A stretch of 64,000 nt of DNA. Origin: Opitutaceae bacterium. Its GTDB lineage: Bacteria > Verrucomicrobiota > Verrucomicrobiia > Opitutales > Opitutaceae. Positions 10,439 to 25,341 of the stretch are shown here, in pieces. Position 1 is the stretch's first letter. Every line of letters begins with the position of its first letter. The stretch lies in assembly GCA_030693515.1 (NCBI GenBank), contig JAUYAK010000095.1, positions 1 to 64,000 of the forward strand, written 5' to 3'. The position numbers and the translations under genes were made by a program. Under the pieces are notes generated by a model, which did not search any database, had not been told where the DNA came from, and worked only from the letters and a program-made list of their open reading frames with translations.

Positions 10439-11686
10439 ATGACCACTCTCCGAAAATTCTTCATCGCCCTTACGCTCGCGCTCCTCATCAGCAACTCCCG
10501 CGCTGCGGACCCCGGCCTCGACGCCTACGGCGGCACGCGTTCGATCAAGGGCCAGGCTACCGGCTGGTTTCACCTCGAGCAGTTGCAGGGTCGCTGGTTC
10601 TTCATCACGCCCGACGGGCATGCCTACATTCCCATCGGCGTAAATCATCTCGGCACCTACTTCACCGGTGCGGATCGCAATCTAAGTTCCACCGAGCACG
10701 ACTTCGTCAAAGAACGGCACGGCGGCGAGGTGAAGCAGGCGGCCGTTCACGTGGAGAAAATAATCCGAGACTGGGGCTTCAACTATGCGGGCTACGATAG
10801 CCCGGTCCACTTCCGGCAAAGCCTGCCGTTCTCCACCGGGTTCAGGCAGACCCAAACATCGGGCGTTCGCTCCGGCACTCCCCCGCAATACACGGATGTG
10901 TTCGCCCCTGAGTTCGCCGCCGATCTGGACCGACGCGTCGCCGAATTTGTCCGGCCCTTCCGGGAGAGCCGCTACCTCCTCGGCTACTACCTCGTCGATC
11001 TTCCGCTCTGGGGCGATCACGCCTACCTCGCCGCCGAGGAGAAATCGCAGGGCGAAAGCTGGCTGTCGTTCTTTCGCAAACTCCCGCCCAACTCACCCGG
11101 CCAGCTCGCGTATGAAAAGAGCACGCGAAACGCGCCCGACCTCAAGGCCGCCGAACTGGCCTTCACCGTTGAGATCGCCGAGCAATCCTATCGCCTCACC
11201 GCCGAGGCCTTCCGCCGCCACGATCCCCACCACCTCGTGCTCGGGGAGCGTTTCGCCGGCGTCCGCTTGTTCATGCCCGTGGTGGAGAAATCAGCGAAAT
11301 ATTTCCCGGTCATCGCCACTCAGCTCGATGGCGAATTCAACCCCGCCTGGTATCGCGAACTTCACCAACGCACCGGCCGGCCCATCATCAGCGTCGATCA
11401 TGTCGCCAATTTTCCCACCTCCGCCACGGCCAGCGTGATGGGCCGCCCTTTGAAAAACGAGGAGGCCGCGGCCGCCCACTATTCCCGCTACCTCCGCGCC
11501 GCCTTCGCCGAACCCTACCTGGTCGGATACAACCACTGCCAGCTCGTCAGCCGCATAAGACGCGAAGGCGAGCCGCCGAGTTGGAAGCAAGGCATCCTCG
11601 ATCCCGCCGGCGCGCCCTACCCTCTCCTCCTCCAAGCCATCTCCGCGACAAACCACGAAGTGCTGGAGCGTCTTTATCGAAAGTAG
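10439..11686 (+). CDS. Secreted agarase-like glycoside hydrolase, divergent paralogue
   Basis: A 415-aa exported protein (MTTLRKFFIALTLALLIS...SRA). It shares the N-terminal RWFFITPDGHAYIPIGVNHL motif and overall layout with the preceding gene, including EPYLVGYNHCQLVS near the C-terminus, but is clearly more divergent and shorter. Barrel segments visible are RDWGFNYAGYDSP, YLLGYYLVDLPLWGD (a possible acid/base region), HHLVLGERFAG and GRPIISVDHVANFP. The gap to the preceding gene is 28 bp, so they are probably cotranscribed. Function is inferred as glycosidase on the same class of oligosaccharide. It is the last gene of this + strand set and converges on the 12-gene minus-strand operon across a 169-bp gap. 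Confidence 0.75.
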   Translation: MTTLRKFFIALTLALLISNSRAADPGLDAYGGTRSIKGQATGWFHLEQLQGRWFFITPDGHAYIPIGVNHLGTYFTGADRNLSSTEHDFVKERHGGEVKQAAVHVEKIIRDWGFNYAGYDSPVHFRQSLPFSTGFRQTQTSGVRSGTPPQYTDVFAPEFAADLDRRVAEFVRPFRESRYLLGYYLVDLPLWGDHAYLAAEEKSQGESWLSFFRKLPPNSPGQLAYEKSTRNAPDLKAAELAFTVEIAEQSYRLTAEAFRRHDPHHLVLGERFAGVRLFMPVVEKSAKYFPVIATQLDGEFNPAWYRELHQRTGRPIISVDHVANFPTSATASVMGRPLKNEEAAAAHYSRYLRAAFAEPYLVGYNHCQLVSRIRREGEPPSWKQGILDPAGAPYPLLLQAISATNHEVLERLYRK

Positions 11687-11855: not shown

Positions 11856-12782
11856 TCAATAGCCGAGGGTCGTGCGCACAAACTCGCGGCTCAACTTCAC
11901 ACTCTCCCGCAGCGGACGGGTCAGCTTGAAAGTTTTTTCGTGCGCCAGCTCGATGATCGCATCGCCCGCGAATCCGACATCGTTCAACGCGGCCGCGATG
12001 CCGGCAAAATCCGTGTCGCCCTCGCCGATCGCCTCAACCCATTTCCCGTCTTTGCTCTGGTCGCGCAGATGAAGAAAAACGATCCGCTTGCCGTGCTGGC
12101 GGATGAATGCGGCCGGGTTGACGCCTCCGCGAACCAGCCAGTTCAGGTCGGGCCCGAGCTTCACGTCAGGGATCCGCTCCAACGTGCCCTTTAGGTCGTG
12201 GAGTTCGTTTTCCACCTCGTAGGCGTGGTTGTGAAGATTGAGCACGACGCCATGCTTGGCGCAGAGCGCGATGATCGTCCGCAGGCATTCCGCCTGCGCG
12301 TCGAGCTGCTCCGGCGTCTTGCGCAGCGTCGGCGTCGCCGGGCGCGGTTGGCCGACGGTCGCACCCAGCGTGCGCCCGCCCAACTGGGCTAGCCGCGTAA
12401 TCACTTTCTCCGCGTCCTCGAGCACAGCCGAGTGCTGCGCGCGGTCCCACATCGCGCCGCCAAACGAAGTGCCGATCACGGGTAGCCGGTGTTTTTGCGA
12501 GAGTTCACCGATTCGCGCCACCGCGTCACCCGGTCGGAGCGCTGTGTGCATCAGCTCGATGCCCTCGATCCCGGCGTAACTGAAGTCGGCAAAAATCTGC
12601 GGCAGCACCGGCGTCGGATCGTAGTTCGGCTGCGTCGCCGCATAGACCCACGGGTGCGCGCCCACGACGACTTTGCGCTTCGTCGTCGCGGCACCGAGCG
12701 CGCCACTCAGGCCCGCTGCCGTTGCCGCAATCGCGGTGGTCTTCAAGAAATCGCGACGAGAGATCAGATGAGTTGGGTGCAT
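11856..12782 (-). CDS. Tat-exported sugar phosphate isomerase/epimerase-like protein
   Basis: A 308-aa xylose-isomerase-like TIM barrel, the last gene of the 12-gene minus-strand operon. The ATG at 12782 was chosen because it starts a twin-arginine leader (LISRRDFLKTTAIAATAA); the open frame continues upstream only as a shadow of the neighbouring gene. Probable metal-site motifs are LNLHNHAYEVENE, LGPDLNWL, FLHLRDQ and IIELAHE. It lies 11 bp downstream of a Gfo/Idh/MocA gene. The pairing of an isomerase of this fold with a Gfo/Idh/MocA oxidoreductase recurs at 3539-5683, so the two steps probably act in sequence. The exact substrate is unknown. Confidence 0.85.
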   Translation of the reverse strand: MHPTHLISRRDFLKTTAIAATAAGLSGALGAATTKRKVVVGAHPWVYAATQPNYDPTPVLPQIFADFSYAGIEGIELMHTALRPGDAVARIGELSQKHRLPVIGTSFGGAMWDRAQHSAVLEDAEKVITRLAQLGGRTLGATVGQPRPATPTLRKTPEQLDAQAECLRTIIALCAKHGVVLNLHNHAYEVENELHDLKGTLERIPDVKLGPDLNWLVRGGVNPAAFIRQHGKRIVFLHLRDQSKDGKWVEAIGEGDTDFAGIAAALNDVGFAGDAIIELAHEKTFKLTRPLRESVKLSREFVRTTLGY

Positions 12783-12793
12783 AGGGAATGGAG

Positions 12794-13912
12794 TTATTTC
12801 GAAATCGTGGTGACGCTCCCGGGCTTCCGCGGCGCGCCGGCATCGGCACTCGCGAGCGCGGCAAAGCAGAGCGCCAAACTGTCGAGGTTGTTGCGCGCAC
12901 TGTGCGCCGGCTCGCGGTTCTCCTCGATGGCGCAAAGCAGTTCGCCCATCGCGCCCTGAAAGCCGCTCGTAAACCACGTGCCGTCCAACGGCACCGTCGC
13001 CTGCCCATCGGCCGTGTGGAGCACCACTGTCTGCTCCGACAAACTCGGACCAACGCTCCGCAGCGTGCCGCGACTCCCGCACACGACCGTGCGATCCTCC
13101 TGCCCGTGCCGCACGTGGCCGTTGAAATTCAGCCGCACCTGCGCGCCTGGATAGTCGATCATCACCTGTCCGAGCATCGGCGGCTTCATCTCCTGAAACG
13201 CCGTGCGCCGCACGCTCGCCCAAACCCGCTCCGCCCGCTGGCCCCGCATGAACCGCGCTGCCATATCGAACCAATGGATGCCGAAGTCGAACAGCACGAG
13301 ATGGCGAATCTCCTCGAACGCCGTGCCCGCCGTCCACGTGTGATCCCATTGCAAGGTAAAATCCACGCTCGCCACCTCGCCGATCACGCCCGCGTGAAGC
13401 GCCGCCGCCATGTAACTGAAATGCGGCGCCCACCGGCCGTTCTGATTCACCGCGAGCTTCACCCCCTGCGCGTCCGCGAGTGCCACGAGCCGCTCGCCTA
13501 CTTCCAAATCCAGCACGAAGGGCTTTTGGCTCAACACGTGTTTCTTCGCCCGCAACGCCGCCTCGATCACGTCGATCCGCTCCTTCGGATGCAACGCGAC
13601 ATCGACGACCTCCACGTCGTCCCGACGCAACACCTCGTGATAGTCATCGCACACGGCCGCCTCCGGGAAAAATTCCACCCGACGCTTCTCCGCCCGCGTC
13701 ACATTCCGGTCACACAACGCAACCACCTCGAGCCCCAGCGCGCGATACGCCCGCAGGTGATATTCGGAAATGCCGCCGCAACCGATCAGCGCGATTTTCG
13801 GCCGATAGCTGTGCGGCCTCGGCGGAAGAGAAGGCAGCACCGGCGCCACGATAGTTCCGCCCGCGCCGGCCGCGCTCAAACCGTAACCACCCGAAGTCGT
13901 AGTCTCGCTCAT
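12794..13912 (-). CDS. Gfo/Idh/MocA family oxidoreductase (cytoplasmic)
   Basis: A 372-aa protein starting at the ATG at 13912, 2 bp after the stop of the preceding operon gene. A Gly/Ser/Pro-rich stretch of about 35 residues precedes the Rossmann domain (KIALIGCGGISEYHLRAYRAL). The catalytic-Lys motif is QKP (HVLSQKPFVLD) rather than EKP. The C-terminal domain includes HLVLFDFGIHWFDM, with the His of the family's active site. There is no Tat or Sec signal, so it should act in the cytoplasm, using NAD(P) to oxidise or reduce a sugar, inositol or sugar acid. It is one of three Gfo/Idh/MocA genes in this operon, which suggests successive redox steps or an oxidation-reduction epimerisation. Confidence 0.88.
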   Translation of the reverse strand: MSETTTSGGYGLSAAGAGGTIVAPVLPSLPPRPHSYRPKIALIGCGGISEYHLRAYRALGLEVVALCDRNVTRAEKRRVEFFPEAAVCDDYHEVLRRDDVEVVDVALHPKERIDVIEAALRAKKHVLSQKPFVLDLEVGERLVALADAQGVKLAVNQNGRWAPHFSYMAAALHAGVIGEVASVDFTLQWDHTWTAGTAFEEIRHLVLFDFGIHWFDMAARFMRGQRAERVWASVRRTAFQEMKPPMLGQVMIDYPGAQVRLNFNGHVRHGQEDRTVVCGSRGTLRSVGPSLSEQTVVLHTADGQATVPLDGTWFTSGFQGAMGELLCAIEENREPAHSARNNLDSLALCFAALASADAGAPRKPGSVTTISK

Positions 13913-13914
13913 GG

Positions 13915-14985
13915 TCAGTCGATCAGTTTCACGGTTTTCCTGAGCCGCGCGCTCAACACCGCGCTGTCGACGATCTGCTGGCCGACGCGCGCAATCTTCG
14001 GCGAAAGCGGTCCCTCGACCGGTCGCCCCTCGCGGATGCAGTGCACAAAATACTGGATCGGGTCCTGCTCCGGCGCCTGCAGTGCATCCACCGGCACATC
14101 TTCGCCGCGCACGTTCGCCCGCGTCTGGACGCGCACCGTCGGTTCGAAGTCGTAGGAACTGATCGTCCCGTCCTCGCCCTTGAGCACGAATCCGCACTTC
14201 GGCTGCGGCTGGTTCGTCCACGGATCGGTGAAGGTGCCCCAGCGCGTCTCAAACTTCGACAACCCCGTCGCGTAGCGCGCGATGGTCACGCTGTGTTGGT
14301 CCACCTCCAGCCCGCGCGTCTGGTCTACGACCGTCGTGACCTCCACCGGCTTCTTTCCGCCGTGATACCACGTGCCCAAGGTCGTCCCGTAGCCGAGGTA
14401 GTCGAGCAACGAACCGCCGCCCGCCGCTTTCCGGTAGAACCAGCTCTTGCGCTTCATCGGTGCCGTTGGCTCCACCTCGATCTTGTCGGCGAGGTGATAG
14501 AGCGGCCCGCGATTACCGTCGTAAAAATGCACCTCCTGCAGGGCTCCGATGCGTCCCTCGCGCAACAGCCGATGCGCCGTCGCATGGGCCGGATACCACC
14601 GCAGTGGCCAGTTGATCGCGAGCAACCGCTTCGCCCTTTTCGCCGCCGCGATCATCCGATCCGCCTCGGCCAGCGTCGCCGCAAACGGCTTTTCCACGAG
14701 CACGTGCACACGATACGGCGCCACCAATTCGACATACTCCGCATGTCGCGCCGTCGCCGGACAGAGCACGACAAAATCGGGTGCCGTCTCCGTCAGGCAA
14801 CAGTGTGGATCGGTGAACACGCGCTCCGGCGGAATACCGAAATTCCGGATCGCCGCCTGCATCCGCGCCGGGTCCGCATCGCAAATCCCGGCGATCTCGA
14901 CGTCGGGATGCTCGTGGCATTTCCGCAGCAGATCGCCCATGTGCATGTGATCGAAGTTCAGGCCGGCGACTTTGAGTTTTTTCAT
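13915..14985 (-). CDS. Gfo/Idh/MocA family oxidoreductase (cytoplasmic)
   Basis: A 356-aa protein with no export signal. The N-terminus is KKLKVAGLNFDHMHMGDLL, where the usual G-x-G-x-x-G is G-L-N-F-D-H, a divergent form of the nucleotide loop. The EKP motif is intact (HVLVEKPFAAT). Other family-like segments are INWPLRWYPAHATAHRLL and GGGSLLDYLGYGTTLGTWY. The start overlaps the stop of the preceding PTE-like gene by 4 bp (ATGA), and the stop is 2 bp before the next oxidoreductase gene, so translation is probably coupled. The unusual nucleotide loop could reflect different cofactor contacts; it is the most divergent of the three operon members by eye. Confidence 0.87.
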   Translation of the reverse strand: MKKLKVAGLNFDHMHMGDLLRKCHEHPDVEIAGICDADPARMQAAIRNFGIPPERVFTDPHCCLTETAPDFVVLCPATARHAEYVELVAPYRVHVLVEKPFAATLAEADRMIAAAKRAKRLLAINWPLRWYPAHATAHRLLREGRIGALQEVHFYDGNRGPLYHLADKIEVEPTAPMKRKSWFYRKAAGGGSLLDYLGYGTTLGTWYHGGKKPVEVTTVVDQTRGLEVDQHSVTIARYATGLSKFETRWGTFTDPWTNQPQPKCGFVLKGEDGTISSYDFEPTVRVQTRANVRGEDVPVDALQAPEQDPIQYFVHCIREGRPVEGPLSPKIARVGQQIVDSAVLSARLRKTVKLID

Positions 14986-15950
14986 GGCTGCGAAAACGCG
15001 AACGTCGAAGCGGGGGTGGAGACGAATATCCTGGCGAGTAGCGCCTGCGGCAATCCTGCTTCCCGGAGTTGCGCGGAAAAATCGCCCAGCAGAAAACTGA
15101 GCCCCGGTCCGCCTCCGTAGCTCCGCCAGTAGGCGCGTCGCGCCGCATCCATGCCGAGCATAATTTGGTCGGGAAACTCCGGGAGCAGCGCGACGATCAA
15201 GTCGCGCGTCGGGTTCCCCTGCCCGGCCTTCCAGCGAAACGCGCTGTCAAACTCCACCCGCACGCCGCTCGCCAACAACTCCCGGTGCAGCCCCGCATCC
15301 GGCTTTCGATCGGTGTGGGAGAGGCACACGTGCCGGAGATCCACCCCGTGACGGCGCAAGCGCTCGACTTGCGCCAATGCCAGCTCGCCCTGTTCGGTGT
15401 GCGTGAGGATCGGACAACCCGTCCGCCGGTGCGCCTGAGCCGCGGCCACGAAGATTTTTTCCTCACGCGCGGTGAACGCTCGGTCGCTCGCAATCTTGAT
15501 CACGCCGGCTCGGTGCGACGTGCGCTCCACAAGCGGTCCGTTGTAGTCGTGCGCATCAACGCCTTCGGTGATGTCCGCGACGAAGAGCGCGGCGAGTTGG
15601 TCCTCCGTGTAGAAATTTCCCCAGTGGCCGGGATCGTAGTATTTCGCCAGATGAAGTCCGGTCGGGCAGATGAGATGAACCCCGGAGCGATGCGAAACTT
15701 CCGCGAGTCTCCGCACGTTACGGCCGCTGTCACACGGCATCGAATCGACCATCGCGCACCCGCCGTCAGCGGCGAACTGCCGCAGTTCCATCACCGCGCG
15801 CTCCACGTCGTCGATCAAAAATTCCGGCGTCGCGTGCGTCACAAAACTACCGTCGATGATCACGTGCTCGTGCGCGTAGCACACGCCGAGCCGCCCCGCA
15901 GGGATGTCGCCGAGGACCGTGCGCACGAAGCTTTCCGGAGCGAACGCCAT
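14982..15950 (-). CDS. Phosphotriesterase-family metal-dependent hydrolase (lactonase-like)
   Basis: A 322-aa member of the amidohydrolase/PTE family. All six expected binuclear-site ligands can be placed: H27 and H29 (YAHEHV), the carboxylated Lys K152 (VIKIASD), H184 (ILTHTE), H212 (LSHTDR) and D268 (LGMDAA). Family members hydrolyse lactones, including sugar lactones and acyl-homoserine lactones, or phosphotriesters. In this operon of sugar dehydrogenases a sugar lactone is the likeliest substrate (inference). The chosen ATG (15950) is 4 bp after the stop of the MFS gene; longer frames upstream are shadows of that transporter. It has no export signal and so acts in the cytoplasm. It overlaps the next gene by 4 bp. 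Confidence 0.88.
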   Translation of the reverse strand: MAFAPESFVRTVLGDIPAGRLGVCYAHEHVIIDGSFVTHATPEFLIDDVERAVMELRQFAADGGCAMVDSMPCDSGRNVRRLAEVSHRSGVHLICPTGLHLAKYYDPGHWGNFYTEDQLAALFVADITEGVDAHDYNGPLVERTSHRAGVIKIASDRAFTAREEKIFVAAAQAHRRTGCPILTHTEQGELALAQVERLRRHGVDLRHVCLSHTDRKPDAGLHRELLASGVRVEFDSAFRWKAGQGNPTRDLIVALLPEFPDQIMLGMDAARRAYWRSYGGGPGLSFLLGDFSAQLREAGLPQALLARIFVSTPASTFAFSQP

Positions 15951-15954
15951 GGGT

Positions 15955-17214
15955 CTATTCCGTCGCCTTAACGGCGCCCTCTTCCACATCAAGCGAGGCC
16001 GGCGGGCGGAACGCCACCAGTAGCAGCACCGCCGCCGCCAACGCCAGGCCCGAGGGCACGAGGAACAGCTTCTGGAAATCCACCGCTCCGTCGTGCGTAA
16101 GCGAAGCTTGGAGTGGAATGAACAGCCATTTCGCCGCGAGGTCCCCCAGTCCGAGGATGAGCAGGTTGAAGAGCCCCTGCGCGCTCGTGCGCACATCCTT
16201 CGGGAACGCCACATCAATGAAAATGTAGAGCGTCGCGAAGAAGAAGGCGTAGCAGATGCCGTGGAGCACCTGGACCGCCACGACCGCCGGGACATTCTGG
16301 CTGAAGAACGCAAAGACGAGGAACCGGCCGGCGTGCCCGAGGATGCCGACAATCATCGTCCACTTCCAGCCGAGCCGTTTCAGGCACAGGCCGAGCACCG
16401 CCATCGTGAGAATCTCCGCGACCTGCCCGATGCTCATGATCGGCATGATGTTTTCGGGTTTCACGCCAATCTGGCCGAGGAAGCCGCCTGCCATCAGGAA
16501 ATAGCCGTTGTGGATCGTCGAGTCGATGAACGTGACGACAAAGAGGACGAGCAGGAACGGGGTCGTCAGGAGGAATTTCAGCGACTCCCGCCAGGCCGGC
16601 TTCTCGCCCGCGCCCCCGGCGACGGTCCGCGGCGGCGTGTGCGGCAGCGCCAGACTGAAGCCCGCGAGCACGATCGAAGCGCCGCCGGCCACGAGGAAGA
16701 TGTAGCTGAGCGCGTGTTCCAACTCCGCGCCCTGCACGCCTTGCAGCACGAAATACAGCGGCCACGACGCCAAGATCCAGCCGATGGTCCCGCCCATGCG
16801 CACGAGGCCGAACTGCCGGCGGGCGTCCTTCAGGTGCGTGAACGCGAGCGAGTTCGCCACCGAGATGGTCGGCACGTAGCAGATTGAATGCACGAGCATC
16901 AGGGCGAAAAACGTCGGGAAATCCCGCGTGAAATACAGCCCCAGCATCGCGAGGCCGCCGATCAGGTGGCTGCCCGCCATGAACCGCTCGGCGGAAAACC
17001 GACGGTCCACGAACTGGTTGCCGAAGAAGATCGCCAGAATCGACGCGATGGCGAAGCCGCTGCCGACCCACGCGATCTGCGTGCCGGTGAAGCCGAGCCC
17101 GCCCATGTAGCTCCAGATCAGAGGCAGCCACGCGCCCCAGATGAAGAACTGGAGCACCATCATGATGAAAAGCCGGATGCCGGCGGAATGAGCGGAGGTT
17201 GGGGGCGGGTTCAT
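15955..17214 (-). CDS. MFS transporter, nucleoside:H+ symporter-like
   Basis: A 419-aa protein with about 12 hydrophobic segments. The N-terminal region LFIMMVLQFFIWGAWLPLIW and the SVANSLAFTHLKDARRQFGLVRMGGTIGWI segment resemble the Nuc_H_symport (NupG/XapB) group of the major facilitator superfamily. In Verrucomicrobiota and Planctomycetota, members of this group sit in sugar clusters, so the true cargo may be a sugar or glycoside and not a nucleoside. The start ATG at 17214 overlaps the stop of the MBL gene by 4 bp. It is the only transporter gene in the 12-gene operon and is therefore the best candidate for uptake of the pathway substrate. Confidence 0.85.
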   Translation of the reverse strand: MNPPPTSAHSAGIRLFIMMVLQFFIWGAWLPLIWSYMGGLGFTGTQIAWVGSGFAIASILAIFFGNQFVDRRFSAERFMAGSHLIGGLAMLGLYFTRDFPTFFALMLVHSICYVPTISVANSLAFTHLKDARRQFGLVRMGGTIGWILASWPLYFVLQGVQGAELEHALSYIFLVAGGASIVLAGFSLALPHTPPRTVAGGAGEKPAWRESLKFLLTTPFLLVLFVVTFIDSTIHNGYFLMAGGFLGQIGVKPENIMPIMSIGQVAEILTMAVLGLCLKRLGWKWTMIVGILGHAGRFLVFAFFSQNVPAVVAVQVLHGICYAFFFATLYIFIDVAFPKDVRTSAQGLFNLLILGLGDLAAKWLFIPLQASLTHDGAVDFQKLFLVPSGLALAAAVLLLVAFRPPASLDVEEGAVKATE

Positions 17215-18077
17215 GTTTTTCGGATTGAGGAAAGATCGGCGGCAGACGCCGCGAGGCTCCACCGCGCGCCGGCCCGTAGCACTGCATGCGGCTGGCCGAG
17301 CCGGCCGCACTCCGCCACGAACGCCAGGGGAGATGCGGTGTTGAAGGCAAACATCTCGTAGTGGCACGGCACCACCCAGCGTGCGCCGATCGCGTGCGCG
17401 AGCCGGGCCGCCTCGGGGCCATCGAGGTTGCCAGACACGCGGCGCTCGGGTGCGCGGCCATTGATCGGCAGCAGCGCCAAATCCAACCCAAACGGGCGGA
17501 GCCGCTCCACCATCCCGGGAAACCGCACCGTATCGCCACTGTGATAGAGGCGAAACGCTCCAACGCTGACCACGAAGCCGGCGAACTCGGGCGCGAGTTC
17601 CTCGTGCGCCGCCGGCACTGCCTCGAAGGTAAACGCGCCCACCGTAGCGCGCTGTCCGTCGGCCAGCGGCACGAATCGCGCCGCGGCGGCCGGCCCGAGA
17701 CGCTGCGCGACGAAAGCGACATTCGCCGCGGGCAAGACGAGTTTCGCCGCCGGTGCGGCCGCGAAGAGCGGACCAAGCGTTTCCGCGTCGAGGTGATCCG
17801 TGTGGTTGTGCGACGACGTGACGGCGCTCACAAAATCCAGCCGTGCCGGATCGACCACGCGCTCGGTCATGCGCACATGCGGCTTGTCCGTGGCGGCATA
17901 TTTCTTCGTGAGCGAATCGCTCAGATACGGATCGAACAGGAGAAACTCGCTCCGATAGCAGACGAGAAAACCGCTTTGCCCGAGCCACCAGACAAACAAC
18001 CGCGGTGACGTGAGGTCGGCGCGGATCGCTGCGACATCCGCGAGGAACGCGTCATCTTGGAGGACGGGGCGAATCAC
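17211..18077 (-). CDS. Metallo-beta-lactamase-fold hydrolase, UlaG-like
   Basis: A 288-aa MBL-fold protein. The metal motif H90-N-H92-T-D94-H95 is intact (TSSHNHTDHLD), followed by VPAAHEELAPEF, YHSGDTVRF and VVPCHYEMF, which supply the remaining ligands. The closest recognisable relatives are L-ascorbate-6-phosphate lactonase (UlaG) and similar sugar-lactone hydrolases. The GTG at 18077 is preferred as start because it overlaps the stop of the MetE-like gene in a GTGA junction; the frame extends further upstream only across that gene. The stop overlaps the next gene by 4 bp. It is the second lactonase-type enzyme in this operon besides the PTE-family gene, so it may act on a different lactone or a phosphorylated one. 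Confidence 0.85.
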   Translation of the reverse strand: MIRPVLQDDAFLADVAAIRADLTSPRLFVWWLGQSGFLVCYRSEFLLFDPYLSDSLTKKYAATDKPHVRMTERVVDPARLDFVSAVTSSHNHTDHLDAETLGPLFAAAPAAKLVLPAANVAFVAQRLGPAAAARFVPLADGQRATVGAFTFEAVPAAHEELAPEFAGFVVSVGAFRLYHSGDTVRFPGMVERLRPFGLDLALLPINGRAPERRVSGNLDGPEAARLAHAIGARWVVPCHYEMFAFNTASPLAFVAECGRLGQPHAVLRAGARWSLAASAADLSSIRKT

Positions 18078-19111
18078 AATCCGAGTTCCTTTTTTACCTG
18101 CCGGATCCCGGCGACCATGTTGCGCAGCTTCGGCTGTGCGGCCCAACGCGCCGTCTGGCTCAGGCCGCAGTCGGGCGCGAAGACCAGGCGGTCCGCCGGC
18201 GCGTGCTTGAGACAGAGGCGCACGCGGTCCGCGATGTCGGCCGGAGTCTCCACGTAGTAACTCTTCACGTCGACGATGCCGACCGCTGCGTCCATGCGCT
18301 GGGCGATCTGCGCGATGAGCTCGATCTCCGCAAACTCCCGGCTCGCCATCTCCACGTGCATTTCGTCGGCCTTGAAATCGAGGAACGCCGGGAACATCGG
18401 GGCCACGCGCCGGGGCCCGATGGCGCGGCCCTTGAAGTTACCAAAACACAGGTGCGTGCAGAGGCGGGTGCGACCATACACTGTCTCCACCGTGCGGTTG
18501 AAAATATCCACGAAGCGCCGCGGATCTTCCTTGTAGGCGTAGCAACTCATCGAGGGCTCATCGACGCTGATCTCGCGGCAACCGGCGGCGACGAGGTCCT
18601 CGAGTTCTCTGCGCACGATCGGCAGCAGCGCCTCGGTGACCGCCCAGCGGTCGGCATAGTGCGCATTGGGCACGAGCCGCCCGCTCAACGTATACGGACC
18701 GGGCACGCTGGCTTTGAGCGCCGCGGCACCGGCGGTCGCGAGACGTTGCAGGCGCTTGAATTCATCCACGACGCCCAGCCCGCGCGGTGCGCGCAGCTCA
18801 CCGGTGATCGCGTGCTTCCCGCGTTGATCATGCGCCGGCGGTCCGAATTTCCGCGGCGAAACGCTCTCCAGTTCGACGCCCTGGATGTAGCCGTAGAACG
18901 AGAGGTTGAAATCGAGACGCGTCTGCTCGCCGTCAGTGATCACATCGAGGCCGGCGTCAACCTGATCATGCACGGCCGCGATGACCGCGTCGTTCTGAAT
19001 CTCGCCTACGTCGGAGCGACCGAACACCTCAAGGTGCTGGCTGGCGAATTCGAGCCAACTGGGAAAGGGATAGCTACCGATAACGGAGCTGCGCAGGGGA
19101 TTTTGTTTCAT
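18074..19111 (-). CDS. MetE C-terminal-domain-like (cobalamin-independent methionine synthase family) protein
   Basis: A 345-aa protein made only of the catalytic barrel of the MetE family; the N-terminal half of true MetE is absent. The likely zinc ligands are present: H220 and C222 (THLCFGN) and C315 (FAPDCGL), with E254 or a neighbouring Glu in ADEMHVEMAS. Other family segments are VIGSYPFPSWL at the start, VITDGEQTRLD, and ISVDEPSMSCYAYKED. Stand-alone proteins of this family include core methionine synthases and epoxyalkane:coenzyme M transferase, all using zinc to activate a thiol. Its place inside a sugar-catabolism operon (8 bp from the preceding gene, 4-bp overlap with the next) suggests methyl- or thiol-group chemistry on the pathway substrate, not methionine synthesis; this is inference. 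Confidence 0.85.
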   Translation of the reverse strand: MKQNPLRSSVIGSYPFPSWLEFASQHLEVFGRSDVGEIQNDAVIAAVHDQVDAGLDVITDGEQTRLDFNLSFYGYIQGVELESVSPRKFGPPAHDQRGKHAITGELRAPRGLGVVDEFKRLQRLATAGAAALKASVPGPYTLSGRLVPNAHYADRWAVTEALLPIVRRELEDLVAAGCREISVDEPSMSCYAYKEDPRRFVDIFNRTVETVYGRTRLCTHLCFGNFKGRAIGPRRVAPMFPAFLDFKADEMHVEMASREFAEIELIAQIAQRMDAAVGIVDVKSYYVETPADIADRVRLCLKHAPADRLVFAPDCGLSQTARWAAQPKLRNMVAGIRQVKKELGL

Positions 19112-19119
19112 GGCGGGAA

Positions 19120-20346
19120 TCAGGATTTCAGCCCCCGCAGATCGACTTCCATGCGCTTGTTCTCTTTGAGCAGCGTTTCCATCGTGAGCCGTGTGCGGCG
19201 CGCGGCGGCCTCGTAGCCGAGCACGCAGGTCAACACGCCGTCGACCGCGCGCTGGCAGGTTTCGTTCGCAAACTCGCCCGAGGTCACCTCGCGATGGAAG
19301 CGCGCGATATTCCGCCCCGCCCCGGCAGCGTAGAGATTTTCGACCGCGCCACCGCCAAAATGCTTCGGGCCGCCGCGCACAAACGACTTTCCCCAATAGG
19401 TGAGAAACGCGTTGGCCTCCGTCCCGTGGATGGCCGCGCTGAGTTCGCCGGAATTATTGTTCTTCAACGCCTGCCCCGCGTGCTGGTGGATCAAGCCGTC
19501 GGCGTATTCGTAGATGAGCGCGACCACATCGCGGGAGTCGCCGTGCGGCTTGGGCCGGCGGATCGCCGAGGTGCCCATCGCGGCCACCGGCCGCCGGCCC
19601 AGCACCCAAAGCGCGGCATCGATCGCGTGGATGTCGAAATTGCCGAGATAGTCGCAGCCCATCGCGACGTCGTTCACCCAAATGAGTTCGCGCAGCCGGC
19701 TCTCCATATTGGCCGTCTTCGGCGGATCTTTTTGCGGGCCGCAGTGGCCGGTCGTGACCACGCGGACGATCTGGCCGAGCCCGCCATCGCGGATGCGCGC
19801 CGCCACCTCGAGGTTTACTGGATCGGTGGGCAACTGGTAGTCAACAAGGAAGCACCGCTGCTGGCGTGTCGCGCGCCGGCCCGCCGCCTCGATGCGCAGC
19901 GCGCCCGGCACATCTGCCGCGACGGGTTTCGCCATGTAAACGTGCAGGCCCGCCTCGACGGCGGCCGTCACGTGCTCGGGAATAAAAAACGGTGGCGTCT
20001 CCACCGCGACGGCCTCAATGCCGCTCGCGAGCAGCCGCTGGTAACCCGAGAGCGTCGAAAACCGCCGCGCGCGATCCACGCCGAGTCCGTCACCGCACTT
20101 GTCGGCTACTTCCTGAAAATAATCCGCCACCGCCCACATCTCGTAGCCGCCGTGCGCCTGAAACAGCTTCGCGATCCACGCGCCGCGCCCGCCGTTGCCG
20201 ATGACGCCGAGCTTGATCTTGCGCGAGATCGCCGGCGCGGGGGCGGTGGAGTCGGCGGCGATCGCAGGCAGCGACGACACGGCGGCGGCGAGGGCGCCAC
20301 CGAGAAATCGGCGGCGGGAAAGTTCGGGATTGGTCGGGGCGTTCAT
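19120..20346 (-). CDS. Tat-exported Gfo/Idh/MocA oxidoreductase
   Basis: A 408-aa protein with a twin-arginine leader (LSRRRFLGGALAAAVSSL) and a Rossmann domain starting KLGVIGNGGRGAWIAKLF. As in its paralogue at 3539-4768 the catalytic-Lys motif is AKP (HVYMAKPVAADVPG), and the two share HGGYE, ADYF and the VDYQ/VDFQ strand. The C-terminal domain includes CDYLGNFDIHAIDAALWVLG. It is the only exported Gfo/Idh/MocA enzyme of the 12-gene operon (the other two are cytoplasmic), so one oxidation could occur in the periplasm before uptake. It lies 17 bp after the FAD-oxidoreductase gene and 8 bp before the MetE-like gene. Confidence 0.9.
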   Translation of the reverse strand: MNAPTNPELSRRRFLGGALAAAVSSLPAIAADSTAPAPAISRKIKLGVIGNGGRGAWIAKLFQAHGGYEMWAVADYFQEVADKCGDGLGVDRARRFSTLSGYQRLLASGIEAVAVETPPFFIPEHVTAAVEAGLHVYMAKPVAADVPGALRIEAAGRRATRQQRCFLVDYQLPTDPVNLEVAARIRDGGLGQIVRVVTTGHCGPQKDPPKTANMESRLRELIWVNDVAMGCDYLGNFDIHAIDAALWVLGRRPVAAMGTSAIRRPKPHGDSRDVVALIYEYADGLIHQHAGQALKNNNSGELSAAIHGTEANAFLTYWGKSFVRGGPKHFGGGAVENLYAAGAGRNIARFHREVTSGEFANETCQRAVDGVLTCVLGYEAAARRTRLTMETLLKENKRMEVDLRGLKS

Positions 20347-20363
20347 GGGGATCGAGAAACGAT

Positions 20364-21746
20364 TCAGGGGTGGTTGGCGCGCCAGTCGTTGCGGCCGGTG
20401 GCCGCCACGGTGGCGGGAGTTTCAAGGACGGCACCGCGCGAACGCAGGCGCGATTGCAACGCAGGGACGGGCACCGCGCGGGCGTCGCAATCTGCGGCGA
20501 GCGACAGCGCGGCGGCCGTTCCAGCCGCCTGCCCCATCGCCATCGTCTGCGCCATGGAGCGACACGAGGCGTGCGCGTCGTGGGTCGCCGAAAAACACCG
20601 GCCCGCCACCCAGAGTTCGTCGCGGCCGCGCGGGACCAAGGTGCGATAGGGCACATCGTAGGCCTGGCCGCCGGGCACATAGCCCCAGACCGTTTCCTCG
20701 CCACCGTCTTTCGTGGCACGGTGGTCCTCGATGGGCGCACCGCAAAGCAGCACGCGGTCGTCGAAACGCGCAACCGAAAGGCAGTCCGCTTTCGTGAGGC
20801 GATACTCGCCGAAGACTCGCCGCGTCTCGCGCACGCCGATCTGATGCGAGAGCCCGATGATGCTGGCCTCTGTGAAACCCGGCACGCAGTCGCGGAAAAA
20901 CAGCTCGTAGGCGAACGCCTGCCGCCGCCCTTCCTGCTCGGCAGCGGTGAGCTGTTCAAAATCCGTCGCATCGAGATCGCCCACGCGCACGGCGACGGTC
21001 GAGATGCATCCACGCGCGTTCATCTCGTGCAGACTGCCGCTCTTGCGCGGGAGCGCGTGGGTGCCGCGATCCACCGCGTCGGCCATGCGCTGCATCAGCA
21101 GTTTCTTCCCGCCCGCCGCCTCATAGGAGAGCAGGTCGACGTTGCTCATGCGAAACGTCGTGGTAAGCGTCTGCGCCGGCTCGTCCTCGCCGGCTTTTTC
21201 ATAGGCAACACCGGCGAGATGGCAGAGGTCGGCATCGCCCGAGGCGTCGATAAAACGACGCGCAGCGATGCGGAAGAAACCGCGCTTGGTCGAAATCACG
21301 ACGCCGGAGATTCGACCCGAGGGATCGTAATCGGCGCCGACGAGCGTCGCGTGAAGCAATACTTGCACGCCGGCGGCGAGGAGCAGTTCGTCCCAGACAA
21401 GTTTGAGACGCTCGGGGTTGTAGTTCACGCCCGTGCCAGCCCCATAGGTGTTGGGTCGCAGAAAAACGGCGCCGGCCGCGTCGAGGGCGTTCACCACGCG
21501 GTCGGGCACGCCACCGACGACCTTGCGCGGTTCAGTGCCCGGCGTGAAGAAGCCGTAGAATGTGTCGAGCATCTGCGTGCTCGTGCCGCCGAGAAACCCG
21601 TAGCGTTCGACCAACCAGACGGGACCCGCTCCCTCCCCTGCCGCCGCGAGCGCCGCGCAGCATCCGGCCGAGCCACCGCCGACCACGAGAACATCGACCG
21701 TCGCGAGGACGGGGATTTTCTCGATAATCAAAGGAGACGTGGTCAT
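20364..21746 (-). CDS. FAD-dependent oxidoreductase (FAD_oxidored family)
   Basis: A 460-aa flavoprotein. The dinucleotide-binding motif is VDVLVVGGGSAGCCAALAAA near residue 18-37, followed by LVERYGFLGGTSTQML, the segment after which this FAD family is recognised. Further typical blocks are RFIDASGDADLCHLAGV in the middle and ELWVAGRCFSATHDAHASCR near the C-terminus. It lacks an export signal. Family members of this kind are common beside sugar genes in Verrucomicrobiota, but their substrates are mostly unknown. It lies 24 bp after the SIS gene and 17 bp before the Tat oxidoreductase gene in the operon. Confidence 0.88.
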   Translation of the reverse strand: MTTSPLIIEKIPVLATVDVLVVGGGSAGCCAALAAAGEGAGPVWLVERYGFLGGTSTQMLDTFYGFFTPGTEPRKVVGGVPDRVVNALDAAGAVFLRPNTYGAGTGVNYNPERLKLVWDELLLAAGVQVLLHATLVGADYDPSGRISGVVISTKRGFFRIAARRFIDASGDADLCHLAGVAYEKAGEDEPAQTLTTTFRMSNVDLLSYEAAGGKKLLMQRMADAVDRGTHALPRKSGSLHEMNARGCISTVAVRVGDLDATDFEQLTAAEQEGRRQAFAYELFFRDCVPGFTEASIIGLSHQIGVRETRRVFGEYRLTKADCLSVARFDDRVLLCGAPIEDHRATKDGGEETVWGYVPGGQAYDVPYRTLVPRGRDELWVAGRCFSATHDAHASCRSMAQTMAMGQAAGTAAALSLAADCDARAVPVPALQSRLRSRGAVLETPATVAATGRNDWRANHP

Positions 21747-21770
21747 GGCGCAGTCCGAATAGGCTGAGGC

Positions 21771-22553
21771 TCAGGCCGGCCCTACGTTGGCATAGAGCTT
21801 CGCAAGGCGATGCGCGTGCTCGTCGTAAGCGGCCTCGAACAACTCCGTCGCGCGGGCGGCACCCACCACGACGCCGGCGCTCAACACTTTGGGCGGGTGT
21901 CCGGCTGCGGTGAGTCGCGCTGCGACTTCGGCCTTGATCGAGTTGACGACGAGGCAACCGCCCACCGTCGAACCGGGCGCGACGGGCGTGTCGAGTCCTT
22001 CGATTTTCACCATCGCATCGCCTACCGGCGCGCCGGTATCGAGGATGAGATCGGCGAAGTCGGTGAGTTTTTTCCCGTCGGCGCGGCGTGACGTGGAGGC
22101 TTTCGCGTGGGCTGCGCTGACGAGGGCGACGACGCGGACGCCGCGGTGCCGGAACTGCTCGGCCATCTCGGTGGGCACGACGTTGCAACCGCTCGAGGAA
22201 ATGATGAGCGCGCTCTCCTGCGTGCTCAGATCGTAGTTGCGCAGGATGCGCTCGGCGAGGCCGCTCACGTTTTCCAGAAACATCGCCTGCCGCTGGCCGT
22301 TGGCGCCGACGACGAGGTTGTGAAACGAAAGCGAGAGCTCCACGATAGGATTAAAACCGGGAAACGAGCCGTAGCGCGGCCACATTTCCTCCACCATTAT
22401 GCGCGAGTGGCCGGAGCCGAAGAGGTGCACCATGCGCCCCGCGAGGATCGTCTGGGCGAACCAGTCGGCCGCCTGGTGAATGGCCGACTGCTGCGCCGCG
22501 ACAGTGTCCACGAGAGCGCGGACTTTGGTGAGGTAGGTTTCGGAAGGAGTCAT
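21771..22553 (-). CDS. SIS-domain phosphosugar-binding protein (UPF0309-like)
   Basis: A 260-aa protein with a single SIS fold. The segment MVHLFGSGHSRIMVEEMWPRYG and the loop ALIISSSGCNVVPTEMAEQF are the phosphosugar-binding elements, and the overall pattern fits the UPF0309 group. SIS proteins isomerise phosphosugars or sense them. Here the gene directly follows a ROK sugar kinase gene with a 4-bp overlap (start ATG at 22553), so the kinase product is a likely ligand. UPF0309 proteins are known to occur near amino-sugar genes, which hints at an amino sugar but does not prove it. Residues around ASTSRRADGKKLTDFADLILDTG form the second half of the domain. Confidence 0.85.
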   Translation of the reverse strand: MTPSETYLTKVRALVDTVAAQQSAIHQAADWFAQTILAGRMVHLFGSGHSRIMVEEMWPRYGSFPGFNPIVELSLSFHNLVVGANGQRQAMFLENVSGLAERILRNYDLSTQESALIISSSGCNVVPTEMAEQFRHRGVRVVALVSAAHAKASTSRRADGKKLTDFADLILDTGAPVGDAMVKIEGLDTPVAPGSTVGGCLVVNSIKAEVAARLTAAGHPPKVLSAGVVVGAARATELFEAAYDEHAHRLAKLYANVGPA

Positions 22554-23449
22554 GACTTCGATAGATTCTGCAACGCACGATAGGCGGCACCAAAAGCCCC
22601 GGCCTGCGCGCCCAGCCGGGCGGGCACCACCGCCACGCGGGACGAGCCGACTCGCCATTCCATCCGGGCAAGCGAAGCGGCGAGCGGTTTGAACAACACG
22701 TCGCCGGCTGCCGCGATCCCGCCACCGAGCACGATGGTCTGCGGATCGAGCACGTTAATCAGACTCGCGAGCGCCGCACCGAGCGCGCGCACGGATCGCG
22801 CCCAAGTTTGCCCAGCCTCGCTGTCGCCCGCGACCGCCGCCGCGACCAGATCTCGGGTCGATTGGAAGCGTCCCCCGCTCCGTTCCGCCACGGTGCAATC
22901 ACCGATTGCATCTTCCAGACTGCCGGGAGTGCCGACGATATCCGGCGTTCCTTCCGGGTTGAGCGAGACGTGCCCGACATGTCCGGCGCGCCCCAAATGG
23001 CCGCGGAGCAAGCGTCCGTCCACCATGGCCGCTCCGCCCACGCCCGTGCCCAGCGTGATCATCAGGACATTCGCACCGCCACTGGCCGCTCCCTGCCAGA
23101 CCTCACCCAGCAGTGCGGCATGGGCGTCATTAAGCACGACGGTGGGCAACTCAAGTTCATCGCTCCATACGAGTCCCGCCAACCCGCGCAGACGTCCCGG
23201 CATATTCACGATCGAGCGTTCATCGCGCGCCGCGAGCCCCGGTGCACATAGCCCCGCCGCTGTGATTTCCGGGAAGCGTTGCCGCAGCGCCGCCACCAGC
23301 GCGCGAACATTTCCCTGCCACCCATCGTCGGCCCCATCTGCCGTCCGACGCGTATCCTCTCCGCATATTCGGCCCGATGAGTCGACGACGATGCCCTTCA
23401 CGTGCGTGCCGCCCAGATCGACTCCGAGAATCAAGCGCGACGAGTTCAT
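22550..23449 (-). CDS. ROK-family sugar kinase, zinc motif absent
   Basis: A 299-aa ROK protein. It has the N-terminal phosphate loop LGVDLGGTHVKGIVVD, the catalytic Asp region VVLNDAHAALLGE, the Gly-rich ITLGTGVGGAAMVDGRL segment, and GHVGHVSLN. The cysteine motif C-x-C-G-x-x-G-C-x-E that binds zinc in most ROK kinases is replaced by EGTPDIVGTPGSLED, with the His retained upstream. Kinase activity is still likely since the Asp and phosphate loops are intact; loss of the zinc site occurs in some ROK subgroups. There is no DNA-binding domain, so it is a kinase and not a ROK repressor. It overlaps both neighbours by 4 bp. Confidence 0.88.
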   Translation of the reverse strand: MNSSRLILGVDLGGTHVKGIVVDSSGRICGEDTRRTADGADDGWQGNVRALVAALRQRFPEITAAGLCAPGLAARDERSIVNMPGRLRGLAGLVWSDELELPTVVLNDAHAALLGEVWQGAASGGANVLMITLGTGVGGAAMVDGRLLRGHLGRAGHVGHVSLNPEGTPDIVGTPGSLEDAIGDCTVAERSGGRFQSTRDLVAAAVAGDSEAGQTWARSVRALGAALASLINVLDPQTIVLGGGIAAAGDVLFKPLAASLARMEWRVGSSRVAVVPARLGAQAGAFGAAYRALQNLSKS

Positions 23450-24255
23450 GGCGTTTCTTCGGGAATCTGTCCTTCACACACCGTCCAGCCGCCGTCGACC
23501 GCCAGCACCTGCCCGGTGACGAAACACGCCGCGTCCGAAAGCAAGAACACCGCCGCACCATCGCAGTCGGCGGGGCGACCGATGCGTCCGCCGTCGAGCG
23601 GCTGTTTCGTCGCGATAAACCGCAGGATGCGTTCGTCGGCCGCAGCGCGACGCGCCATGGGCGTCTCCACCAGCGCCGGAGCGAGCACATTGAGCCGGAT
23701 GTTTTTCGCCGCGTAGTAACCAGCCGTCGATTTCGTGAATCCCACGATCGCCGCTTTCGCCGCCGCATAGACGTGGGTCGCAAAAAACTGCGGCGACGGC
23801 GACCAGCCGAGCACCGAGCCCATGTTCAAGACCGCACCACCGGTGCCCTGCGCGAGAAACTGTTTCACCGCCGCGCGGTTCGAGAGAATGACCGAGTGCA
23901 AATTTAGTTCGAGGGTTGCACGCAGTCCGTCGTCGGTGATCTCGTGCAACGGTCCGTCGCCCAGACGGCGTCCGCTGCCGCCGGCGACGTGATACAGGCC
24001 GTGAAAGCCTCCGAATCGCTCCATCGCGAGCACAATGGCGGCCGGTGCGTGCCCCGCATCGGTCGCATTTCCCACCTGCGCCGCAGCATCATGGCCGAGC
24101 GTCGCGATCGCCGCGCTCGCGCTGTTGGCATCGCGCCCGGTGACCACGACTCCACGCGCGCCGGCCGCAAGAAACGCCCGGGCCGCGGACAGCCCGAGCC
24201 CTGTCGTGCCACCCACGACGACGATCACCTTACCGGAAAGGGGTTGGTCGGCCAT
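23446..24255 (-). CDS. SDR-family NAD(P)-dependent oxidoreductase
   Basis: A 269-aa short-chain dehydrogenase, the first gene of the 12-gene operon. It has the nucleotide loop GGTTGLGLSAARAFL, an NMGS active-site Ser strand (VLNMGSVLGWSP), the catalytic pair VYAAAKAAIVG (Y-x-x-x-K), and VLAPALVETPM. The chosen ATG at 24255 faces the divergent regulator gene across 84 bp. Upstream frame extension is antisense to the regulator and was rejected. It probably oxidises a hydroxyl of a sugar or sugar acid. The stop overlaps the ROK gene by 4 bp. Confidence 0.9.
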   Translation of the reverse strand: MADQPLSGKVIVVVGGTTGLGLSAARAFLAAGARGVVVTGRDANSASAAIATLGHDAAAQVGNATDAGHAPAAIVLAMERFGGFHGLYHVAGGSGRRLGDGPLHEITDDGLRATLELNLHSVILSNRAAVKQFLAQGTGGAVLNMGSVLGWSPSPQFFATHVYAAAKAAIVGFTKSTAGYYAAKNIRLNVLAPALVETPMARRAAADERILRFIATKQPLDGGRIGRPADCDGAAVFLLSDAACFVTGQVLAVDGGWTVCEGQIPEETP

Positions 24256-24318
24256 GGTGGAAAGCAGAGGCCGCGATCGCGGGCTTTCAAACATTAACAA
24301 ATCGCTCGACGCACAAAC

Positions 24319-24335
24319 TGATATGATAAATATCA
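24319..24335. promoter_or_regulatory. Palindromic operator candidate between divergent regulator and operon
   Basis: TGATAT-GATAA-ATATCA is a perfect 6-bp inverted repeat with a 5-base centre, in an otherwise GC-rich region. It ends 4 bases before the regulator start codon (24340) and is 64 bp from the first codon of the 12-gene operon. A TATGAT -10-like hexamer (24322-24327) for the regulator lies inside it. It is the likely binding site of the GntR/LacI-type regulator, giving autoregulation and control of the operon. A 12-bp palindrome CCGCGATCGCGG at 24271-24282 lies closer to the operon start. Confidence 0.6.
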
Positions 24336-24339
24336 CGGG

Positions 24340-25341
24340 ATGCCCCGCCCCCGTTCCGCCCACGTCAGCGAGGTGAAAGCCGCCCTGGTTGCCCGTCTGC
24401 AGGGCGGCTTCGCGCAGCCCGGCGGACGGTTTCTCTCGACCCGGGCGGTCGCCCAACGTTTCACCGTCAGCTACCAGACCGCGCATCGGCTGCTCGGCGA
24501 ATTGGAGGCCGAAGGACTGCTGCAGCGCCGCGCCGCCTCCGGTTCCTATCATCCGGGCCAGAGTGTCGCGTTGCGCGGCGTGCAATTGATTTTCCACCTG
24601 CGCGCCAAACGGAAAGGTTCCTTTGGCGCCCACTTGTTGGAGTTGATCGAGCACACGCTGGACGAGAACGGCGTTCCCTTTGTGCGCACTTGGGCCGACG
24701 CCAACGTCGCGCCTCGCCTTCGCACCGAATACTATCCCGTCGCGTGGGAATGCCGTGCCGCTGTCGAAGCCGCCGCGGTGGCCAAAAAATTCGCCCTCTG
24801 CCTCAACGACCGCCCGCCGATGGGGATCGGCGGGGCCTACGTGGACGCGGTGACGACCGACGATTTTTCCGGTGGTGCGTGCGCCGCCGAACTCTTGAAA
24901 GAGCGGACGCATCATCGGAAAGGCTTCGCCGTGTTGGGCGGCCCCGTTGACGATCCTCGTAGCCTTCAACGCATCGCCGGCTTTCACGCCCACGCACCGA
25001 ACGCGCACGTGATCAACGCCGCGACGTGGTTCATCGAGGGCGGTCGCGCGTGCGCCCGCGAAATTCTCGGCAAAAACCCCGCGGGCATTTTCGCCTGCAA
25101 TGATCGTCTCGCCGAGGCGCTGATCGAACACTGTCGCATCCATGGTGCGCCCCTGCCGCCGCTCGTGGGCTTCGACAACGCCCCCGTCGCCGAACGTCTC
25201 CGTCTGACCACCGTCGGAATTCCGTGGAACGCCATGGTTGCGCAAGCGGCCAACGTCATCACCGCACGCCTTCAGGGCGGCCATGAACCCGCCCGATTCA
25301 TCAGCCTCGCCCACGAACCCATCCTGCGGCTGACCTGTTAG
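24340..25341 (+). CDS. GntR/LacI-hybrid transcriptional regulator
   Basis: A 333-aa regulator with an N-terminal winged-helix GntR domain (residues about 8-70, including LSTRAVAQRFTVSYQTAHRL and LEAEGLLQRR) and a C-terminal periplasmic-binding-protein-like sensor of the LacI type (residues about 80-330, with PAGIFACNDRLAEALIEH and LVGFDNAPVAERL). This layout is typical of sugar-responsive repressors. It is read divergently from the 12-gene operon and almost certainly controls it. The winged-helix domain begins within the first ten residues, so the ATG at 24340 cannot be far wrong; the operator palindrome ends only 4 bases upstream, leaving no room for a normal ribosome site, which points to a leaderless or very short 5' leader transcript. 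Confidence 0.88.
   Translation: MPRPRSAHVSEVKAALVARLQGGFAQPGGRFLSTRAVAQRFTVSYQTAHRLLGELEAEGLLQRRAASGSYHPGQSVALRGVQLIFHLRAKRKGSFGAHLLELIEHTLDENGVPFVRTWADANVAPRLRTEYYPVAWECRAAVEAAAVAKKFALCLNDRPPMGIGGAYVDAVTTDDFSGGACAAELLKERTHHRKGFAVLGGPVDDPRSLQRIAGFHAHAPNAHVINAATWFIEGGRACAREILGKNPAGIFACNDRLAEALIEHCRIHGAPLPPLVGFDNAPVAERLRLTTVGIPWNAMVAQAANVITARLQGGHEPARFISLAHEPILRLTC

Follow-up and report, generated by a model that had tools for sequence, protein, structure and literature searches.

The first 64,000 nucleotides of contig JAUYAK010000095.1 (forward strand; assembly GCA_030693515.1) of an Opitutaceae bacterium, a member of the Verrucomicrobiota, form the window analysed here and carry a compact 12-gene operon on the minus strand, running from position 24255 to 11856. 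The conserved unit in this operon is a core of five genes, SDR-ROK-SIS-MetE-like-UlaG-like, which is accompanied by exchangeable modules and occurs in Verrucomicrobiota and Bacteroidota. The optional modules are an FAD oxidoreductase with a PTE-family hydrolase, two Gfo/Idh/MocA enzymes and a 3-keto-glycoside set. Very probably, this unit represents a dedicated system for sugar-type catabolism that is conserved and is undescribed in the open-licence papers searched. More tentatively, we propose that the operon degrades an O-methylated sugar by a kinase, dehydratase, lactone and demethylation route to 2-keto-3-deoxy-6-phosphogluconate (KDPG).

A core of five genes and its modules

The MetE-like protein, used as the query against named genomes, gave 218 relatives, and the best 80 of the 218 provided the loci (L numbers) compared here, many of them from Opitutaceae metagenome-assembled genomes (MAGs); a match in these loci means at least 40% identity. 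Judged by record titles, of which a few for MAGs may be wrong, the 80 loci comprise 34 Verrucomicrobiota, 39 Bacteroidota, 4 Chloroflexota, 2 Planctomycetota and 1 Acidobacteriota. The core genes, all on the minus strand, encode an SDR dehydrogenase (23446–24255; matched in 49 of the 80 loci), a ROK sugar kinase (22550–23449; 44 loci), a SIS protein of the NagS/UPF0309 family that is likely a phosphosugar dehydratase (21771–22553; 62 loci), a MetE-like zinc/homocysteine methyltransferase domain protein, assigned by Pfam, conserved residues and fold (18074–19111), and a UlaG-like metallo-beta-lactamase-fold hydrolase (17211–18077; 68 loci). All five occur together in 37 loci (24 of 39 Bacteroidota, 13 of 34 Verrucomicrobiota and 0 of 7 from other phyla), and strains named Larkinella and Flexithrix in their record titles carry the full core. 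The SIS, MetE-like and UlaG-like genes are found together in 55 loci.

The arrangement is also conserved. All 302 matches to other operon genes share the strand of the MetE-like gene, and the regulator (REG) is divergent in 6/6 loci with a match, which makes the arrangement more than chance. The UlaG-like gene follows the MetE-like gene within 400 bp in 57/80 loci, and the SIS gene precedes it within 400 bp in 38/80. Spearman coefficients between core-gene distances range from 0.41 to 0.82, have no background control and carry little weight. Among the module genes, the FAD and PTE genes are both present in 16 loci, and Gfo2 accompanies Gfo3 in 15 of 15. The first-pass annotation had suggested searching for the gene set as a unit in other genomes; the five-gene core does recur across phyla, whereas the 12-gene set is not the conserved unit.

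Co-occurrence was assessed in a class sample of 141 genomes (G numbers), with clade members of at least 61% identity for SIS, 70% for MetE-like and 53% for UlaG-like. The SIS clade is present in 19 genomes and the MetE-like clade in 15, each of which is also a SIS genome. The UlaG-like clade is present in exactly these 15, while G041, which has neither the SIS nor the MetE-like clade, carries a homologue at 52% (contig C1, 1524465–1525325), and weak homologues (35–39%) occur in G012, G027 and G029. With the last three dropped, co-occurrence P-values were 6e-17 and 3e-19 when genomes were treated as independent, which they are not, and 1e-7 and 9e-10 by family, with 46 families assumed from printed labels. 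In the 15 genomes the UlaG-like homologues are frequently on contigs apart from the other genes, and in G056, G088, G124 and G128 the SIS, MetE-like and UlaG-like genes lie on three separate contigs; the association is therefore more than local. Among the 14 own-family genomes listed, the SIS clade is confined to G000, the rest having none or relatives of about 30% identity. FAD homologues (at least 69%) occur in four of the 141 genomes, namely G000 and three that have the SIS clade but neither MetE-like nor UlaG-like. Variant units with SDR, ROK, SIS, FAD and PTE genes, in genomes without MetE-like or UlaG-like at the thresholds used, were observed in G076 (L022), G136 (L028) and G025 (L035, L058). 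Gfo2 and Gfo3 are also present in G136 and in G025 (on a second contig), and are not in the examined stretch of G076.

Recomputed coordinates agree with the first-pass annotation on the 12 genes, their common strand and the absence of any intergenic gap above 24 bp, which is the maximum found. From 5' to 3' the gaps are −4, −4, 24, 17, 8, −4, −4, 4, −4, 2 and 11 bp; with the starts chosen here this gives five 4-bp overlaps and not the six claimed. The family list given earlier is likewise in agreement with the Pfam and NCBIfam matches (SDR; ROK; SIS_2; FAD_oxidored PF12831; three Gfo/Idh/MocA; Meth_synt_2; Lactamase_B_2; Nuc_H_symport; PTE; AP_endonuc_2), for which the frames of the UlaG-like, PTE and TIM-barrel (TIM) proteins were extended beyond the gene at the 5' end.

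The single divergent regulator, described before as a GntR/LacI hybrid, is confirmed at 24340–25341 on the plus strand, where Pfam finds a GntR-like winged helix (26.8 bits, just under the cut-off of 27) and a LacI-type sensor domain (Peripla_BP_3; 44.5 bits, well above cut-off). Between REG and SDR lies a conserved candidate operator, TTATCATATCAG (24318–24329, minus strand). The sequence TTATCATATCRG has one match in the entire 6.65 Mb genome, at 24318–24329, and would be expected 0.11 times in the window allowing one mismatch. Further, TTATCATATCRS occurs in 7 of 138 loci, always between REG and SDR and nowhere else in the 138. It is present in seven of the nine loci where REG and SDR could both be placed, with regulators down to 44% identity; of the nine intergenic regions compared, that of L022 has the sequence only in weaker form, and none is present in L028, for which the regulator start is not placeable. 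These observations fit one dedicated regulator with one target, which may bind this candidate operator.

Core enzymes and rival readings

The MetE-like protein (345 aa) consists of the Meth_synt_2 catalytic domain only and lacks the N-terminal folate-binding domain of MetE. Across 82 homologues, zinc ligands H220, C222, E254 and C315 and homocysteine residues S13, E62 and D184 are kept in at least 97%; the residue roles follow a published study (PMC7857596), and the positions were mapped by our own alignment. Clade-wide invariant residues include R87, H94–R97, R145 and C190–Y191. By fold the protein is closest to MesD (3rpd; Z 36.1, root-mean-square deviation (rmsd) 2.5, 324 aligned residues, 27% identity), in a model with low-confidence loops at 68–70, 87–96 and 225–232. 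MetH scored above cut-off in 19/19 genomes tested, including all 15 with the MetE-like clade. For this reason the MetE-like protein is not a housekeeping methionine synthase, and a role as the sole methionine route was rejected. MesX matched in 0 of the 19 genomes, but no control genome gave a match either.

These results bear on a reading in which the sugar is unmethylated, the MetE-like protein is a spare methionine synthase or a supplier of methionine or one-carbon units, and the remaining genes serve ordinary 3-keto-sugar and lactone catabolism. SIS-clade genomes without the MetE-like gene do exist, and 3-keto genes are linked to the operon. Against this, MetH is already present in every genome tested, the MetE-like clade was found only together with the SIS clade in the sample of 141 genomes, and it lies inside the unit across phyla, so that we regard this reading as unlikely. 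The intact zinc-thiolate site would also suit a sulfur-linked sugar conjugate, from which the MetE-like protein would handle a released thiol or thioether. However, the homocysteine-binding residues are kept too, and the occasional PurU, URO-D and corrinoid neighbours indicate one-carbon rather than sulfur metabolism, making such a substrate highly improbable.

In 117 loci and the window, the one-carbon genes found in the unit were PurU in four loci, URO-D family proteins in three and corrinoid proteins in two. PurU, of the 10-formyl-folate hydrolase type, adjoins the MetE-like gene or lies one gene away in L027, L041, L088 and L091 (assigned by Pfam in L088 and by homology in the others). A 23S rRNA-intervening-sequence-type protein is encoded between the two in L027 (10291–12611) and L088 (3477–4689), by Pfam in L088 and as the same cluster in L027. 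In L073, a URO-D protein, a corrinoid protein and a second URO-D protein are encoded between ROK and SIS, the first URO-D is also found in L066 and L069, and in L087 a corrinoid protein gene lies beside the MetE-like gene.

The URO-D and corrinoid neighbours would suit a corrinoid relay as in the Mes families, where a URO-D-type methyltransferase demethylates (or dealkylates) the substrate and a corrinoid protein passes the group by way of the MetE-like protein to homocysteine; corrinoid proteins are the presumed partners of MesA to MesC (PMC7857596). Yet stand-alone corrinoid proteins (PF02607; frames of 217 and 239 aa) were found in only 2 of the 15 MetE-like genomes, G096 and G101, which argues that the usual methyl donor is not a dedicated corrinoid protein. 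G000 has the MetH site only, and no homologue of the L073 and L087 corrinoid proteins was found in the remaining 78 loci. A dedicated corrinoid donor as a general rule was thus rejected, and we hold the relay to be quite unlikely. The other extra PF02607 matches among the 15 genomes are in frames of 311–371 aa, which we take to be the size of B12-dependent regulators.

The SIS protein matches NCBIfam NF002805 above cut-off. The only solved relatives found are NagS (SCO4393), which is a dehydratase, and 3cvj, which carries the name of a putative phosphoheptose isomerase, and dehydration is consequently at least as likely as isomerisation. The earlier pathway claim is supported for a regulated sugar-type catabolic unit with kinase, oxidation, lactone-opening and methyl or thiol parts, and its isomerisation step is no more likely than dehydration. 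Equivalents of NagS H53, S54, R64, E94, S119, S121 and D179 are kept in 61 or 62 of 62 close homologues, with the essential H53, R64, E94 and D179 in 61, 62, 62 and 62, respectively. At the N228 position, 58 of the 62 carry A, V or C and two carry N, and Gln occupies the position of S91 in 61, in a column that is uncertain (there is a gap nearby, and a phmmer alignment places Met). A second SIS gene, 37–39% identical to the main one, precedes ROK in L066, L067, L068, L069, L071, L072 and L093; the Asn228 position is Gln in 7/7 divergent SIS copies aligned (six second-SIS loci and L128).

Membership of the NagS family could point to an amino sugar degraded by a variant N-acetylhexosamine pathway that uses NagS-like chemistry and in which the MetE-like protein has an unrelated role. 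The ROK protein also gives scores below cut-off with the kinases of N-acetylmannosamine and N-acetylglucosamine. NagS converts N-acetylglucosamine-6-phosphate (GlcNAc-6P) to a 2,3-unsaturated furanose-6-phosphate, and three distant homologues (26–36% identity) are reported as inactive on GlcNAc-6P (PMC12680351). Together with the replaced S91 and N228 equivalents, these homologues disfavour GlcNAc-6P as the SIS substrate. In addition, no NagA family match was found among the operon's 12 proteins, and the MetE-like protein would be left unexplained, which makes an amino sugar very unlikely. A ketohexokinase-family protein replaces ROK in L077 and L078.

Seven residues of the UlaG-like protein (H90, H92, D94, H95, H158, D182 and H239) are invariant in 40 sequences; they form a metal-type motif and presumably act as ligands. 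Its model (predicted local distance difference test score 94.3) has as top folds 3bv6, an uncharacterised protein of Vibrio cholerae (Z 29.9, rmsd 2.6), and UlaG 2wyl (Z 29.8, rmsd 2.5), over 264 residues, with 2wym also among the first. The UlaG equivalog model of NCBIfam gives 33 bits against a cut-off of 306. The nearest structures to the PTE protein (14982–15950, minus strand; 19/80 loci) are 3msr and 3pnz, which we take to be phospho-furanose lactonases, in line with a match to NCBIfam NF045706 below the equivalog cut-off (183.8 against 630 bits). Similarly, a 6-phosphogluconolactonase-family gene lies between the MetE-like and UlaG-like genes in L120, L122, L127, L134 and L136. By family assignment, such units thus appear to hold two further families that contain phospholactonases, which supports a lactone step.

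Proposed pathway and flanking genes

Computation supplied the gene families, the retained active sites, the conservation and co-occurrence of the unit's genes and the conserved candidate operator, whereas the substrate, every reaction and their order are inferred. The substrate would be a sugar probably methylated on O-2, its glycosides being opened first by a 3-keto route with Gfo dehydrogenases, TIM-barrel enzymes and the PF06439 hydrolase. The ROK kinase would convert the free sugar to the sugar-6-phosphate, from which the SIS protein, in NagS-like fashion, would remove the C3 hydroxyl to give a 2-methoxy-2,3-ene furanose-6-phosphate. Oxidation at C1 by the SDR would yield a five-membered lactone resembling ascorbate-6-phosphate, and its opening by the UlaG-like (or PTE) enzyme would leave an open acid that is the methyl enol ether of KDPG. 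The MetE-like protein would then pass the enol-ether methyl to zinc-bound homocysteine, yielding methionine and KDPG, which an Entner-Doudoroff aldolase would cleave; the KDPG-aldolase family gene of L087, and the one present in each of 19 genomes, would suit this last step. Kinase, NagS-like dehydratase, C1-type dehydrogenase and interchangeable phospholactonases would make a coherent series, to which a zinc-homocysteine methyltransferase is a plausible final addition. With a plain 2-hydroxyl substrate the methyl enzyme would be unneeded. A MetE-like step needed only for 2-O-methyl substrates would explain why SIS genomes without MetE-like exist, while the reverse is unseen in the class sample. 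The narrower claim, that the MetE-like protein acts as a sugar O-demethylase needing neither oxygen nor folate nor cobamide, in a cross-phylum five-gene pathway, we regard as doubtful.

Several points weigh against the demethylation route. We know of no precedent in this fold for enol-ether methyl transfer to zinc-homocysteine, the substrate is itself putative, and the specificity of the SDR is unreadable from sequence. A NAPE-PLD fold is close behind UlaG for the UlaG-like protein (Z 28.2), and identity to UlaG is only 17%. Four of the 19 SIS genomes (G013, G025, G076 and G136) lack MetE-like and UlaG-like at 1e-60 and 1e-20, three with the FAD module instead, from which it follows that the core can run without demethylation. 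Conversely, 18 of the 80 MetE-like loci have no SIS match in the examined stretch, several on short contigs, and five (L098, L108, L121, L125 and L128) have neither SIS nor UlaG-like. A KDPG-aldolase family gene is clearly linked in L087 alone, between SDR and MetE-like, and its presence in 19/19 genomes does not discriminate. The URO-D and corrinoid genes of a few loci would be equally explained by the corrinoid route. If the proposal is correct, a conserved P450-free cassette of Verrucomicrobiota and Bacteroidota would feed methylated sugars into the Entner-Doudoroff route and account for what becomes of one more class of natural sugars. It would also give a NagS-type enzyme a catabolic role and carry MetE chemistry beyond biosynthesis into catabolism.

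The pathway had been confined to 11856–24255 but extends to 2889–5683 on the opposite strand. This plus-strand stretch encodes a 3-keto-disaccharide hydrolase of PF06439 (2889–3491), a Gfo/Idh/MocA protein (3539–4768) and a TIM-barrel AP_endonuc_2 protein (4790–5683), which are 72%, 63% and 65% identical to operon-internal genes of L061. In the Opitutaceae loci L059 and L061, genes of these three families are part of the operon, where FAD and MetE-like flank them; Gfo/Idh and TIM-barrel genes precede MetE-like in L066, L068 and L093, and a PF06439 hydrolase gene is also inside the L073 operon. Because homologues of 2889–5683 sit inside the operon in relatives, the pathway is tied to 3-keto-glycoside breakdown, and the linkage expected of a 3-keto-glycoside pathway is found in 2889–5683, L059 and L061. 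A second PF06439 protein (8269–9021, plus strand) is 29% identical to that of L061, and its membership of the system is uncertain. A sulfatase gene (1251–2864, plus strand) lies directly upstream of the module. GH31, GH97 and GH43 enzymes are added in L127 and L134, and a sulfatase in L103.

The remaining operon genes, all on the minus strand, are less widespread. They encode the FAD oxidoreductase (PF12831; 20364–21746; 18/80 loci), which forms a module with PTE and for which no solved relative was found by sequence, the GfoT protein (19120–20346; 3/80), an MFS transporter of the Nuc_H_symport family (15955–17214; 2/80), the dehydrogenases Gfo2 (13915–14985; 18/80) and Gfo3 (12794–13912; 15/80), and the TIM-barrel AP_endonuc_2 protein (11856–12782; 4/80). 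REG has a match in six of the 80. Of the two Tat signals claimed before, that of the TIM protein is upheld by TIGR01409 (22.3 against an NCBI cut-off of 16.7), while GfoT, a Gfo/Idh/MocA protein, has a twin-arginine motif (RRRFLGG) by eye, with no Tat model match listed.

Further observations concern the flanks. Adjoining the regulator, a 450-residue frame at 25766–27118 (plus strand) matches an IS1634-family transposase over residues 62–283 only, and this copy therefore looks broken. An apparently separate sugar operon (27598–31968, minus strand) comprises an MFS transporter, a GH1 glycosidase and a LacI regulator. The convergent plus-strand genes at 10439–11686, 9052–10410 and 7269–8048 had no Pfam match at the threshold used. 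A tRNA-Ala (ggc) called by ARAGORN at 1441–1514 (plus strand), within the sulfatase frame, is probably a false positive.

Comparison with known systems

The earlier statement that the set matches no named pathway holds within the open-licence PMC papers searched, in which no description of MetE-based sugar demethylation or of this gene set was found. The sole sugar O-demethylation found in the papers searched is the oxygen-dependent P450 demethylation of 6-O-methyl-D-galactose (PMC10033563). It likewise removes a methyl group from a sugar; it is oxidative, however, and releases formaldehyde, and no P450 family match was found among the operon's 12 proteins. The 3-keto-glycoside and levoglucosan pathways share the Gfo/Idh, TIM-barrel and PF06439 genes, but their abstracts name oxidation, elimination, hydration and reduction, with no kinase, SIS or methyl step. 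In addition, the three Gfo proteins score 19 to 44 bits for levoglucosan dehydrogenase, compared with 650.

UlaG, the L-ascorbate-6-phosphate lactonase, shares its fold and metal-type motif with the UlaG-like protein, but the two are 17% identical in the fold alignment, the equivalog score is far below cut-off, and no other ula-type gene is among the operon's 12. The PTE-family phospho-furanose lactonases provide the nearest structures and the NCBIfam family of the operon's PTE protein, which differs in its score of 183.8 against 630 bits. NagS, the GlcNAc-6-phosphate dehydratase of Streptomyces (SCO4393), belongs to the same SIS family, with seven active-site equivalents kept, whereas the Ser91 and Asn228 equivalents are replaced here, and the SIS gene neighbours are ROK and FAD rather than dmdR1. 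Finally, the core methionine synthases MesA to MesD (PF01717 without the folate domain) have the same single catalytic domain with its zinc and homocysteine residues. For MesD, an identity of about 72% is given (PMC7857596), whereas the MetE-like protein is 27% identical to 3rpd. Unlike MesA to MesD, it sits in a sugar operon, is accompanied by MetH and has its own clade-invariant residues.

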